Program-made: the position numbers and the translations under genes
Shown here: piece by piece, positions 1 to 64,000 of the stretch
How positions within the stretch are numbered: the stretch's first letter is position 1
How the letters are laid out: each line of letters begins with the position of its first letter
The notes under the pieces: generated by a model
What the model saw: only the letters and a program-made list of their open reading frames with translations
What the model was told of the DNA's origin: nothing
The model's database searches: none
Origin: Desulfomonile tiedjei DSM 6799
GTDB lineage: Bacteria; Desulfobacterota; Desulfomonilia; Desulfomonilales; Desulfomonilaceae
DNA: 64,000 nt
Direction: 5' to 3'
Assembly: GCF_000266945.1 (NCBI RefSeq)
Contig: NC_018025.1
Span: forward strand, 3,100,001 to 3,164,000

Positions 1-1557
1 CAGAGCGGAAACTACCGTGACTTCGGCCAGTCCCAGAAGACATCCCAGTTCCACAGCTTCCGTCAAATCCGTATTGAAAAGTTTCCCTCGATCATCGATG
101 GAAACCTGAGAGTATCGTTCCCTGAGCTGCTGCAATTCATCGAGTGCTTGGCGTAATCCCTGCTCATGACGAAATACCGAACATTCGAGAGACATAACTT
201 GCTGCACCAATTCTCGAATTTTGACGGCCTTTTCCCCGTTTGCCCGGTTCAGTATACTGTCGATTTTCGCGCGACTGTTGTCCGTTGCATCTTTCATGAG
301 TGTCGACCGGTCCAGTTGTCGAACGTCCTTGCTTATAGCCTGCCCTGCCCGCCTGCCAAAAACCACGAGATCCAGCAGTGAGTTACATCCGAGCCGATTC
401 GCTCCATGCACGGAAATGCACGCACATTCACCTGCTGCATAGAGGCCGGAAATAGGGTTGTTCTCTGCATCGAGAACTCGTCCGTCCAGATCCGTGGGAA
501 TTCCCCCCATCATGTAATGGCACGTAGGAGCTACGGGAAGAGGCTCAGTCGCCACGTCCACTCCCACATAGATTTTGGCAAACGATGAAATGTCCGAGAG
601 TTTTTGCTGCAGAAGATCCTTGCCCAGATGAGTTAAATCCAGATGCACGAAATCTCGACCGTCAATTCCGCGATCGTTCCGAATCTCCGTGACAATTGCT
701 CTGGAAACGACATCTCTTGCTGCAAGGTCTTTTATCGTCGGTGCATACTCCTCCATGAATCGCGCGCCATAACGATTTCGCAGCACCCCGCCTTCGCCTC
801 TTGCAGCCTCGCTGATGAGGACCCCGAGTCCATAGATTCCCGTTGGATGGAATTGCACGAATTCCATATCTTCCAACGGAATGCCTGCTTCATATGCGAG
901 ATACACTCCGTCGCCGGTGTTTGCGAAACAGTTGGAACTCGTCTTGTAGAGCTTTCCGTATCCGCCGGTAGCAAGCAGAATGGCCTGTGCATGAAAAACG
1001 TGCAATTCTCCGGTGGCCAGTTCATAGGCTGTCAGGCCGACTGCCCTTCCCTTTTCCATCAGTAATTCAATTATATGGAATTCCGAATACGTCTTTACAC
1101 GCCGCCTGAAAGCTTCCGAATACAGTGTATCCAGGATAACGCGGCCTGTTCTATCTGCCGCATAACATGCTCTTTTGACTGGACCTTCTCCGAAATTCCT
1201 GGTGTGACCTCCGAACGCACGCTGCGCGATGCGGCCGTCAGGAGTACGGCTGAAAGGCACTCCTATGTGCTCCAGCTCGTAAATGGCCCTGACAGAATCC
1301 AGAGCGAGTACTTCTGCTGCATCCTGATCCGTCAGGTAATCACCGCCTTTCACGGTGTCATACATATGCCATTCCCAGGAATCAGGCTCCTCGTTGCCGA
1401 GAACGGCTACTATTCCACCCTGTGCGGCTCCGGAATGCGACCTTGTTGGATACACTTTGGTTATGACCGCTACATCGGCATGTTCTCCGATTTCAAGAGC
1501 TGCACGAAGACCTGCAAGACCGGAACCGACGATTATCACATCGTGTTTAAAAATCAT
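1..1557 (-). CDS. sdhA: Succinate dehydrogenase/fumarate reductase flavoprotein subunit (C-terminus cut by window edge)
   Basis: FAD-bearing catalytic subunit of the succinate dehydrogenase/fumarate reductase family, interconverting succinate and fumarate at the membrane. The first 519 residues are visible; the family runs to about 580-650. Read from the ATG at 1555-1557, the N-terminus has the dinucleotide-binding motif GSGLAGLRAA. It is followed by RSHSGAAQGG, the region of the covalent flavin histidine in this family, then HTR, QFHPTG, SEAARGEGG with RF, HYMMGGI and GECACISVHGANRLG. These are the substrate and FAD contacts of SdhA/FrdA. It lies 76 bases downstream of citrate synthase on the same strand, so the two may share a transcript. 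The FeS and membrane subunits would lie left of the window. Sequence alone does not tell which direction is physiological. Confidence 0.93.
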   Translation of the reverse strand, partial: MIFKHDVIIVGSGLAGLRAALEIGEHADVAVITKVYPTRSHSGAAQGGIVAVLGNEEPDSWEWHMYDTVKGGDYLTDQDAAEVLALDSVRAIYELEHIGVPFSRTPDGRIAQRAFGGHTRNFGEGPVKRACYAADRTGRVILDTLYSEAFRRRVKTYSEFHIIELLMEKGRAVGLTAYELATGELHVFHAQAILLATGGYGKLYKTSSNCFANTGDGVYLAYEAGIPLEDMEFVQFHPTGIYGLGVLISEAARGEGGVLRNRYGARFMEEYAPTIKDLAARDVVSRAIVTEIRNDRGIDGRDFVHLDLTHLGKDLLQQKLSDISSFAKIYVGVDVATEPLPVAPTCHYMMGGIPTDLDGRVLDAENNPISGLYAAGECACISVHGANRLGCNSLLDLVVFGRRAGQAISKDVRQLDRSTLMKDATDNSRAKIDSILNRANGEKAVKIRELVQQVMSLECSVFRHEQGLRQALDELQQLRERYSQVSIDDRGKLFNTDLTEAVELGCLLGLAEVTVVSAL

Positions 1558-58868: not shown

Positions 58869-60023
58869 ATGAACACATTTACCCTGGAAGATTTAAAGAC
58901 TCTCTTGGAATGCCAAGGAGGACCCTGTATATCAATATACCTTCCGACTCACAAAAAGGGGGGAGATACCCAACAAGATCCGATCAAGCTCAAGAATCTT
59001 CTCAAAACGGCAGAAGAGCGGCTCATGCAAAGGGAAATGCGGACCGTTTCCGCAAAGGAATTGCTGGCTCCAGCCCAGGATCTAATTTCCGACACACGTT
59101 TCTGGTCGTACCAATCCGACGGTCTAGCTATTTTCATCTCTGAAGGACAGTTTATCCTCCACAATGTACCTCTCTCATTTGAGGAACTTGTGGTAGTGAG
59201 CGAACGTTATCATACAAAGCCTTTGCTTCAGCTACTAACGGGGGATGGGCGATTCTATGTTCTTGCGCTGAGTCAAAATAAAGTGAGACTTCTCGAAGGC
59301 ACAAAGTTCAGTGTGAATGAAATAGAGCTAGAGAACGTTCCTTTAAGCAAGCAAGAGGCACTCGGATATGATAATTTCGAGAGACAATTAAAGTGGCGTG
59401 GACAGAAACCTCCCACGTCAGCCGGAAAACAAGCCGGAATTTTCCACGGACATGGAGAAGGAACTGAAGAGAGCAAAGATCAAATTTTGCTTTTCTTCCG
59501 AGCCGTTGACAAGGGTCTGAGAGATATCGTGCATTGCGACGGTAATCCGATGATCCTTGCCGGAGTCGATTATCTGATTCCCATTTACAAGGATGCCAAT
59601 ACGTGTCCCAAGCTGATTGACGGATGGATCAGCGGAAACCCGGAAAGTCTCAGTGCGGAACAGATCCATGAACAGGCCTGGAAAATAATAGAACCGCATT
59701 TCGCACTCGCTCAGAAACAAGCGGTAGAACTGTACTACAGTCTGGCGGGTACGGGAAAGACAAGTCCACACCTTGATACCGTGATAAGAGCAGCATATTC
59801 AGGAAGGGTGGATACGCTGTTTGTCCCTGTGGGCGTCCAAAGATGGGGGAAGGTAAACCCGGACGATTTCAGTTCGGAACCACATGATGAGCAAATGCCT
59901 GGAGATGAGGATCTGCTGGACGCAGCGGCAATACAGACCATTCTGAATGGAGGCACTGTCTATGCCGTGCAACCGGATCAGGTTCCCGACAATCGATATA
60001 TCGCGGCGATTTTGAGGTATTGA
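58869..60023 (+). CDS. baeRF (bacterial archaeo-eukaryotic release-factor-like) protein
   Basis: 384 residues matching the eRF1-like baeRF families: LEDLKTLLECQGGPCISIYL, then PIKLKNLLKTAEERL, FWSYQSDGLAIFISEGQF, FYVLALSQNKVRLLEGT, and the end part VDTLFVPVGVQRWG and AAAIQTILNGGTVYAV. baeRF proteins are thought to act on stalled ribosomes or in stress, by relation to release factors, but this is not shown for this one. No GGQ motif is seen in its usual form. GGAGAGG precedes ATG. It follows the small CxxC-tail gene and precedes DUF72. Confidence 0.8.
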   Translation: MNTFTLEDLKTLLECQGGPCISIYLPTHKKGGDTQQDPIKLKNLLKTAEERLMQREMRTVSAKELLAPAQDLISDTRFWSYQSDGLAIFISEGQFILHNVPLSFEELVVVSERYHTKPLLQLLTGDGRFYVLALSQNKVRLLEGTKFSVNEIELENVPLSKQEALGYDNFERQLKWRGQKPPTSAGKQAGIFHGHGEGTEESKDQILLFFRAVDKGLRDIVHCDGNPMILAGVDYLIPIYKDANTCPKLIDGWISGNPESLSAEQIHEQAWKIIEPHFALAQKQAVELYYSLAGTGKTSPHLDTVIRAAYSGRVDTLFVPVGVQRWGKVNPDDFSSEPHDEQMPGDEDLLDAAAIQTILNGGTVYAVQPDQVPDNRYIAAILRY

Positions 60024-61395: not shown

Positions 61396-61459
61396 TCGGG
61401 ACCTGTTTTCAAATTTACTCGGTCCCTAAGGTAGACACATTCCAGGCGAGGTTATGATA

Positions 61460-61615
61460 ATGGACAAATGGTTCAGGATAGCGCTCTTTTTCGTGCTCGC
61501 CGTTTTTAGTGCTCAGCTTGTATTCGCTCGGGAGGGAAGACTTCCCGACCGACCGGCCGACAACATTGAGACGACAAAAAGCATAAAAGTGGCTACGAAA
61601 CCGGCTTCCGGCTGA
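61460..61615 (+). CDS. Signal-peptide segment of the HEAT-repeat gene, ending at in-frame UGA
   Basis: ATG 61460 has GAGG eight bases before it. 51 residues comprise a signal peptide (WFRIALFFVLAVFSAQLVFA) and a polar linker, closed by TGA (61613-61615). The reading frame continues without another stop into the HEAT frame at 61652, so this is either the beginning of one recoded or mutated gene or a free small exported peptide. The UGA would be codon 52 of 437. Confidence 0.55.
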   Translation: MDKWFRIALFFVLAVFSAQLVFAREGRLPDRPADNIETTKSIKVATKPASG

Positions 61616-61649
61616 CAACGAACATCGAGATCGGGCAGATCTCTCGTTG
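61616..61649 (+). promoter_or_regulatory. Hairpin directly after in-frame UGA, resembling a bacterial SECIS
   Basis: CAACGA (61616-61621) pairs with TCGTTG (61644-61649). GAGATC (61627-61632) pairs with GATCTC (61638-61643). The loop is GGGCA, with a 5-base bulge on the 5' side. The upper stem starts 11 bases after UGA and the loop 17 bases after, within the published bacterial SECIS geometry, with G at the first loop positions. Confidence 0.35.
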
Positions 61650-61651
61650 AC

Positions 61652-62773
61652 ATGCTCAAAGATCCGAATGCACGCGTACGCCAACAAGCAGCCGAAGCCA
61701 TAGTCGGCACCTCCAGTTGTCCTGACGATTTATTGCAGCCTCTCCTCGAACTGCTCAATGATGAGGATCCGAAGGTCGTCCAAGCTGCAATTGTTGCCCT
61801 GGGTCGCGTCGGGAAAGGTAAGTCCGAAGTGGAAGAGTCACTTCTCAGATTCACCAGTGATTCGAATCCTCTCCTGAAAGAGTCTGCCGTAATTGCACTT
61901 GCCCGGCTGGGACGCGTCGATGACCAAACCATTTCCATACTCCTGAAAACATTGGAATCTTCAGATGACTCATTAAGAACCTCGGGAGTCGCTGCAATCG
62001 GAATGGCTGATGAATCTCAAGCCGTCAGACTCATTCCTGAATTGATCCGGAACCTGGAGACCGGACAAGAAAGGGCATTCGGGAGTTCGCGTGCCGCCCT
62101 GTTGCTGATGAAGGATCGTTGCCGTCAATCTCTTGACCGGATAGTCGCTGTTTATGAGAAGGTGCCTCACGAGCGAAAGCCCGATATACTCAAAATACTT
62201 ATTCAGCTTGATTCTACGGGCGAGCATTCTCTTCCGGTTCTGACGGCAGCATTGAAAGATTCAAATCTTGAGATGAGAAAGATTGCGCTTTACGGAATGA
62301 TCAGAACCACCAAAGACGGAGATGTTCTCAAGCCGTATCTCGAAACCGCGTTGAACGATGCAGACCGGGAAATACAGATCGCTGCATTGAGATACCTGCA
62401 CGCACATGCAGACAAAATGCCTGATCTGTTCCCGAAAGTGCTTGCTTTGACAAAGCACGATAAGCCACAGGTCAGAATGGCTGCCGTCAATGCTCTCGTG
62501 CCTTTTAAGGCACAGTCATCGGAAAGCTTCAAAGTTCTGAATGATATAGTACAACACGACAGCGATCCCCAGGTTCGAGCGAACACCTGTGCTGCTCTCG
62601 CCCGTATGGATCTGGATTGGGCACCGAAAATTCTGCCTTTACTGGAGCATGTTTCCCAGACCGAAGAAGATGCAAAGCCGAAGGACTCCGCAAAAGCTGC
62701 TCTAAAAAGCCTGCGTCGTCGTCTGGCTTTGGACCGGGACACCATGATTCCCGGAGAAGAATTGGGACGATAA
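61652..62773 (+). CDS. HEAT-repeat protein (downstream part, possibly continuous with 61460)
   Basis: 373 residues composed of HEAT or PBS-lyase-like repeats from first to last residue (for example DPNARVRQQAAEAIVG, DPKVVQAAIVALGRVGKG, SNPLLKESAVIALARLG, KPQVRMAAVNALVPF and SDPQVRANTCAALARM). Such solenoids are protein-binding scaffolds. Its ATG at 61652 lies within the first repeat and has no ribosome-binding site, so it is probably not an independent start; with the segment from 61460 it would be an exported protein of 437 residues. Confidence 0.75.
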   Translation: MLKDPNARVRQQAAEAIVGTSSCPDDLLQPLLELLNDEDPKVVQAAIVALGRVGKGKSEVEESLLRFTSDSNPLLKESAVIALARLGRVDDQTISILLKTLESSDDSLRTSGVAAIGMADESQAVRLIPELIRNLETGQERAFGSSRAALLLMKDRCRQSLDRIVAVYEKVPHERKPDILKILIQLDSTGEHSLPVLTAALKDSNLEMRKIALYGMIRTTKDGDVLKPYLETALNDADREIQIAALRYLHAHADKMPDLFPKVLALTKHDKPQVRMAAVNALVPFKAQSSESFKVLNDIVQHDSDPQVRANTCAALARMDLDWAPKILPLLEHVSQTEEDAKPKDSAKAALKSLRRRLALDRDTMIPGEELGR

Positions 62774-63287: not shown

Positions 63288-64000
63288 TCAGTGAGGGATT
63301 TCTACAGCCTTTTCCTTCACCGTGATAGCAACTCTGTAGAGTACGGACAAGATGAAGAATCCCAGCGCCCACACTCCCAAGGTGATTGCCATTTCCGTTG
63401 CCGTTGGACTGTAATCGGTTATCGTCTCCAGGGGCGAGGGAATGTAACCGGTGAGGACCAGGGTCACACCCTTTTCGATCCAGAGACAGATGAAAACCGA
63501 CGCACAGGCTATGGTCAACGTAGTTTCGTTGTTACGGGTCTTCGGATTGATCAGGAGCGCTATGGCAACAAACGCCAACACTACGGCCGTCCACATCCAC
63601 GGGACGAGGAATGCGTGTCCATGGAATCCGGTGAACAGGAACGTGAAGTGATTCATGTGCTCGGGAATCTGACTGTAAAATACGGTAAAGAGTTCACAGA
63701 GCACGAAGAACACACTGATAATCATCGCGTACGTGATAATCTTGGCAAGAGTCTGGATTGCTTCCCAACCCGCATCAAATTTTGTGTACCTTCTGAGGAA
63801 AAGACAGAAGAGAATCAGAAGCGAAGGACCGGAAGCAAATGCGGATGCCAAGAATCTCGGTGCCATGATTGCAGTCAACCAGAAGCCGCGGCCAGGCAGA
63901 CCGGCATACAGAAACGCTGTGACTGTATGAATACTGACTGCCCAGGGAATGGAAAGATAGATCAATGGTTTGACCCAGGAAGGAGGCGGTGCGCCTTTGC
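63288..64000 (-). CDS. NrfD/DsrP-like membrane subunit (N-terminus cut by window edge)
   Basis: Multi-pass quinone-interacting subunit of respiratory complexes (NrfD/PsrC superfamily; DsrP, HmcC and QrcD in sulfate reducers). The visible 236 codons hold about six transmembrane helices. SIPWAVSIHTVTAFLYAGLP and IMAPRFLASAFASGPSLLIL resemble the DsrP/NrfD core, and a last helix precedes a short cytoplasmic end. The frame is open to the right edge, so the start is outside. FeS, cytochrome or catalytic subunits should lie to the right; which complex it belongs to cannot be decided here. A strong terminator follows. Confidence 0.88.
   Translation of the reverse strand, partial: KGAPPPSWVKPLIYLSIPWAVSIHTVTAFLYAGLPGRGFWLTAIMAPRFLASAFASGPSLLILFCLFLRRYTKFDAGWEAIQTLAKIITYAMIISVFFVLCELFTVFYSQIPEHMNHFTFLFTGFHGHAFLVPWMWTAVVLAFVAIALLINPKTRNNETTLTIACASVFICLWIEKGVTLVLTGYIPSPLETITDYSPTATEMAITLGVWALGFFILSVLYRVAITVKEKAVEIPH

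Follow-up and report, generated by a model that had tools for sequence, protein, structure and literature searches.

Several bacterial selenoproteins are known that carry selenocysteine (Sec, U) in a C-x-U motif, encoded by a UGA with an adjacent bacterial selenocysteine insertion sequence (bSECIS). They include a ferredoxin-thioredoxin reductase (NF041072), a UshA-like protein (NF041198), rhodanese form 3 (NF041203) and Trx-like Sec.1 (Table 1 of PMC13188914). A protein family that appears to share these features, here termed Sec-HEAT, is represented by a gene in Desulfomonile tiedjei DSM 6799, within a stretch of 64,000 nucleotides (contig NC_018025.1, positions 3,100,001 to 3,164,000), referred to below as the window. 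Whereas the described C-x-U selenoproteins have thioredoxin, rhodanese or enzyme folds, Sec-HEAT combines a predicted signal peptide with an all-alpha solenoid of HEAT repeats. Repeats of the HEAT or E-Z type are likewise found in PBS-lyase/HEAT proteins (CpcE, CpcF, NblB, the C-terminal region of PRK13800 and the DVU0298 family), to which Sec-HEAT has weak family-level matches. These matches fall far below curated cut-offs, however, and unlike Sec-HEAT, which is predicted to be exported, the PBS-lyase/HEAT families have neither a Sec site nor a SECIS. The element behind the UGA resembles the fdhF-type bSECIS of Escherichia coli (model as in PMC13188914), likewise a hairpin immediately 3′ of the UGA whose loop begins with G and G/U.

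We estimate a probability of about 0.93 that TGA 61613 of the window is a Sec codon in a family of exported-type HEAT-repeat selenoproteins, read by SelB via the hairpin that follows it, and that the window copy is a paralogue keeping both Sec and hairpin. The estimate draws on computed UGA conservation, RNA-level constraint, Sec machinery, protein fold and gene neighbourhood, from which insertion of Sec, export and function may be deduced. The start, ribosome-binding site and signal peptide described in the initial annotation of this locus hold (Table 1), the last of these as a prediction from a hydrophobic N-terminus that ends in VFA, an A-x-A-like site. An alternative ATG at 61454 lies only 2 nucleotides from the ribosome-binding site, and ATG 61460 was chosen as the start. 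The single in-frame TGA is followed by 385 open codons, up to 62773, in an unbroken HEAT frame (Pfam HEAT_2, 4.5e-40, 136 bits against a gathering score of 27.7), and the internal ATG at 61652 has no ribosome-binding site, both as had been claimed. In a combined scan of the 64 kb window for a read-through frame with a bSECIS-like hairpin, TGA 61613 was the sole TGA to pass.

Table 1. Features of the Sec-HEAT locus in the window
Feature	Position	Strand	Details and basis
Sec-HEAT gene, TGA read through	61460..62773	+	437 aa, Sec = residue 52; stop TAA 62771-62773; Pfam, alignment, AlphaFold model
Ribosome-binding site AGGCGAGG	61444..61451	+	8 nt 5′ of ATG 61460; sequence
Predicted N-terminal signal peptide, ~residues 1-23 (...AQLVFA)	61460..61528	+	sequence; AlphaFold helix 2-23
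In-frame TGA, putative selenocysteine codon	61613..61615	+	aligned column: TGA in 17 further homologues, TGC in one
SECIS-like two-part hairpin	61616..61649	+	folding; same place in relatives; family-wide synonymous constraint U+1..U+11
HEAT-repeat solenoid, ~residues 61-427	61640..62740	+	Pfam, AlphaFold model
Rhodanese-domain gene, N-terminal hydrophobic segment	60901..61395	+	64 nt upstream of Sec-HEAT; Pfam
dsrP, runs off window; nearest of convergent dsrMKJOP genes	63288..64000	-	NCBIfam DsrP

Comparison of the read-through protein with 60 related genomes recovered full-length homologues in the window's own bacterial family, nearly all with exactly one TGA. Nineteen homologues (window copy included) from 15 Desulfomonilaceae genomes were aligned, at 27-62% identity to the first row. 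The U column holds TGA in 18 of the 19 and TGC (Cys) in the remaining one, G008b, with no Gly, Arg or Trp, the residues that would have spoken against Sec; Cys or UGA at codon 52, together with a conserved hairpin, is the pattern that the initial annotation had named as the sign of Sec. Since the spacing between U and a conserved L..xL.D....VR block is identical in all 19 rows (L at U+10, L at U+14, D at U+16), the placement of this column is independent of the U residue itself. The UGA is also at a near-constant distance from the start, at residue 52 in the window copy and 52-53 in its relatives. Read through, most homologues show ELGC[GSTA]U[NSK][KR]PARAVPPLIEALKDP. The family is present in most Desulfomonilaceae genomes searched, and in a profile search of 395 genomes of the phylum, a non-exhaustive sample, matches at E<=1e-40 were confined to Desulfomonilaceae. 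Eight Sec-HEAT loci, with their coding checked, were recovered also from separate metagenome assemblies that carry organism names, the relatives being mostly Desulfomonile/Desulfomonilaceae.

Selection at the RNA level was measured on the codon alignment as the sharing of the same codon between pairs with the same amino acid, relative to the expectation from codon usage. The excess of synonymous-codon conservation averages 0.375 at U+1 to U+11 against 0.026 in other parts; among 391 segments of ten codons, the best one begins at U+1. An Ala at U+4 is almost always encoded by GCG, and a Pro at U+8 by CCG. Codons frozen in this way are the mark of an RNA element that appears to be embedded in the reading frame. 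The common form of the hairpin in the family is GAGGGCG-GUUC-CGCC(U)CUC, with the loop 17-18 nucleotides after the UGA, and all 19 rows have G at position 22, counted from the U of UGA. A strict hairpin (loop 17-18 nucleotides after the UGA, [N]G[G/U] at the loop start) is found in 14 of the 18 UGA members. The window copy has the peptide QRTSRSGRS in place of NKPARAVPP and a different stem sequence, yet folds at this site into a hairpin whose loop begins with G. Most Sec-HEAT members have a 4-nt GUUC loop and a 3′-side bulge, and the window copy has a 6-bp stem free of bulges and a GGGCA loop of 5 nt, in which they would differ from the fdhF element. As a separate observation, the Sec site of the Cys homologue G008b reads TGC TGC and its hairpin stem is down to 4 bp, making this homologue a candidate for Sec-to-Cys conversion with SECIS decay.

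In the window copy, a lower stem of CAACGA (61616-61621) and TCGTTG (61644-61649) is topped by a 6-bp upper stem of GAGATC (61627-61632) and GATCTC (61638-61643), which closes the loop (61633-61637) that begins 17 nucleotides after the UGA; the two-part stem-loop with a G-starting loop reported earlier thus agrees in coordinates and sequence. Its minimum free energy (MFE) is -13.6 kcal/mol (36 nt), and it lies within every published bSECIS constraint: a loop of 3-9 nt, a stem of 4-16 bp, G in loop positions 1-2, spacing of 16-37 nt and an MFE <= -7.5 (PMC13188914). By chance, however, the same constraints were satisfied at 16.6% of 4000 codons sampled from long open reading frames of the window. 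A strict form (stem >=6 bp, loop at +16..18 that opens with [N]G[G/U]), which the window hairpin has, occurred at 0.7% of these codons. Against sequences that encode this peptide with other synonymous codons, the energy of the hairpin is only mildly unusual (z -1.4). The hairpin alone was therefore rejected as proof of Sec: given this chance rate and z value it is suggestive, and the homologues decide. The SECIS argument of the initial annotation is weaker on its own than it looked.

AlphaFold models built from nine-row alignments gave the window copy an all-helical solenoid (predicted local distance difference test score, pLDDT, 85) with helices at residues 62-428 and with Sec52 in a low-confidence stretch, 22-59. 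Foldseek matches were generic HEAT/ARM solenoids. In the group represented by L068, the first HEAT helix, A, spans residues 39-51 and the next helix residues 56-66, so that C51-T-U53 runs from the last turn of helix A into the A/B loop. The only thiol or selenol position kept in every member is the Sec column (Sec or Cys). A partner Cys is found as C-x-U in most members, at the loop between helices A and B of HEAT repeat 1; it is spaced C-x-x-U in G011a (CGGU), and G009b (AGGU) has none. The earlier remark that the residue context is not redox-like thus applies to the window copy, with S-x-U, but not to most relatives, whose G-C-x-U is redox-like.

Several observations weigh against the Sec reading or parts of it. 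The window copy has lost the partner Cys, no close orthologue was found when its protein was used as query for related loci, and its branch in the tree is very long, several times the length of the others (~2.7-3.5 changes per site). The set holds a single Cys homologue, and in four UGA members (G000b, G002, G006 and G007) the MFE structure is not the strict hairpin. Base-pair covariation in the hairpin was not significant and not above that of shuffles, with few compensatory changes, as most members are too alike in this element; covariation was dropped as proof of the stem, and the support comes from the synonymous-site constraint instead. The proposed function, in turn, is a guess that leans on gene neighbourhood. 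The window copy is a fast-evolving paralogue of the family; the same genome carries a further paralogue, at genome position 1701727-1702992, in which residue 52 would likewise be Sec. Grouping it by tree with the other rhodanese-linked members was also attempted; with so long a branch, no placement was obtained.

These same features could be taken to mean that the window copy is a decaying paralogue of a real selenoprotein family, in which the useful Sec function has been lost and the UGA is a fossil. The long branch, the lack of a close orthologue, and the absence of both the partner Cys and the first HEAT helix (alignment, AlphaFold) would suit such a history. It is nevertheless improbable, as the frame is still open at every codon on either side of the UGA over that evolutionary distance, the HEAT_2 match still reaches 4.5e-40, and the guanine-cytosine (GC) pattern 3′ of the UGA is of the coding type, like that of the adjacent genes. 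The hairpin has also kept its position although its stem sequence differs, and the rhodanese-side members G009b and G011a keep the UGA without C-x-U.

The D. tiedjei genome contains the complete Sec machinery. The selA (599 bits), selB (404.5 bits) and selD genes to which the initial annotation had pointed are all present, selD carrying its own in-frame TGA, together with a tRNA-Sec with anticodon TCA, which reads UGA (69.5 bits). With the homologues, this supports the earlier suggestion of a possible Sec codon. SelB and Sec-tRNA-Sec(UCA) would read UGA 61613 with the aid of the hairpin at 61616-61649, yielding a 437-residue HEAT-repeat selenoprotein with Sec at residue 52 and a predicted signal peptide, by which it would be exported.

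A second selB (291 bits) occurs in the genome, directly preceded by a gene that resembles tRNA-Sec but has a GCA (Cys) anticodon (C1:3562734-3564838). This arrangement matches the selC*/selB* tRNA-Cys system (reviewed in PMC7609411) and resembles the pair described for Syntrophobacterales. The UGA might accordingly be decoded as Cys, or as another amino acid by near-cognate read-through, and the UCA anticodon does occur in some selC* tRNAs. Such decoding is very improbable here, however. The GCA tRNA would decode UGC/UGU rather than UGA, canonical tRNA-Sec(UCA), SelA and SelD are all at hand, 18 of the 19 members keep UGA and not UGC, and the Sec-HEAT gene does not need the second pair. A nonsense mutation or sequencing error, such as an indel close to the A5 run (~61578), where the initial annotation had seen a shifted frame open as well and had counted error as a serious alternative, can be set aside as extremely unlikely, because the same homologous codon is UGA in independently sequenced genomes and assemblies and the distances from start to UGA and from UGA to the conserved block agree with those of the relatives.

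The neighbourhoods of Sec-HEAT genes fall on two sides. In the main branch, the gene forms a conserved cluster with two others, one for a SEC-C/TPR protein and one for a CxxCxxCC (PF03692) protein; it is divergent from aprB, aprA and the subsequent qmo-type genes, with gyrB-gyrA usually on the other side of the cluster; qmoA/qmoB were named from gene order and HdrA-like matches, and gyrB/gyrA from sequence recognition. Of the 12 loci read, 11 contain both the SEC-C and the CxxCxxCC gene and 10 have aprA nearby. Loci with both genes upstream of Sec-HEAT, mostly divergent from aprBA, are L084-L089, L092, L094 and L097-L099. We know of no role in sulfate reduction for the SEC-C/TPR and CxxCxxCC proteins.

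The window copy follows a rhodanese-domain gene, as do G009b and G011a, whose rhodanese genes are 51-53% identical to that of the window. In these two, MauE/DoxX and DGC (zinc-binding) genes lie between the rhodanese and Sec-HEAT genes; the window's own genome has no DGC gene. An ArsP-type permease gene is found near G009b (L095, G009:C73), and thioredoxin_3 and TauE/SafE genes near G011a (L096, G011:C265). The Cys form G008b (L022/L091, G008:C82; L091:9355-10587, minus strand) adjoins a gene with a thioredoxin_3 domain and has an ArsP permease in its vicinity. On its other side, the window copy is convergent with dsrPOJKM, and DsrP, DsrO, DsrJ, DsrK and DsrM all score above NCBIfam cut-offs. 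A rhodanese gene beside dsrMKJOP as the ancestral arrangement was considered and found no support: seven other rhodanese loci read have no dsr genes nearby, and the dsr neighbourhood may therefore be particular to the D. tiedjei genome. Two genes upstream of the window rhodanese lies a release-factor-like gene of the baeRF family (58869-60023; baeRF_family3, 6.1e-48), probably by coincidence.

The function we favour for Sec-HEAT, guessed from C-x-U and from the sulfur-metabolism neighbours, is exported selenol redox chemistry or sulfur or metal handling. The selenol would carry out this chemistry while the solenoid docks to a partner, and Sec-HEAT might thereby serve or protect the sulfate-respiration machinery. 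More tentatively, Desulfomonilaceae could use the family as a selenium-dependent accessory factor dedicated to dissimilatory sulfate reduction. The exported solenoid, through its selenol (often part of C-x-U), would then manage redox equivalents, sulfur or metal on behalf of the electron-transfer machinery of Apr/Qmo and DsrMKJOP, and a second branch would work with rhodanese, MauE/DoxX and DGC proteins; this proposal is doubtful at present.

No HEAT-repeat selenoprotein has an entry in the 2026 catalogue of 119 prokaryotic families (PMC13188914), and none is named in deep-Sep (PMC12013277) or in further open literature, a search that left subscription papers and supplementary tables outside its scope. 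None of the 19 members matches an NCBIfam selenoprotein model. As far as checked, Sec-HEAT is a new family of predicted selenoproteins within a known kind. It would add an all-alpha HEAT scaffold to a selenoproteome described as mostly thioredoxin-fold, and its genes adjoin those at the core of sulfate respiration. Sec-HEAT genes would be split in two by any standard gene caller that ends a frame at TGA. As Sec is kept where the neighbouring Cys sometimes is not, the family may offer a test of the role of selenium outside the classical redox folds.
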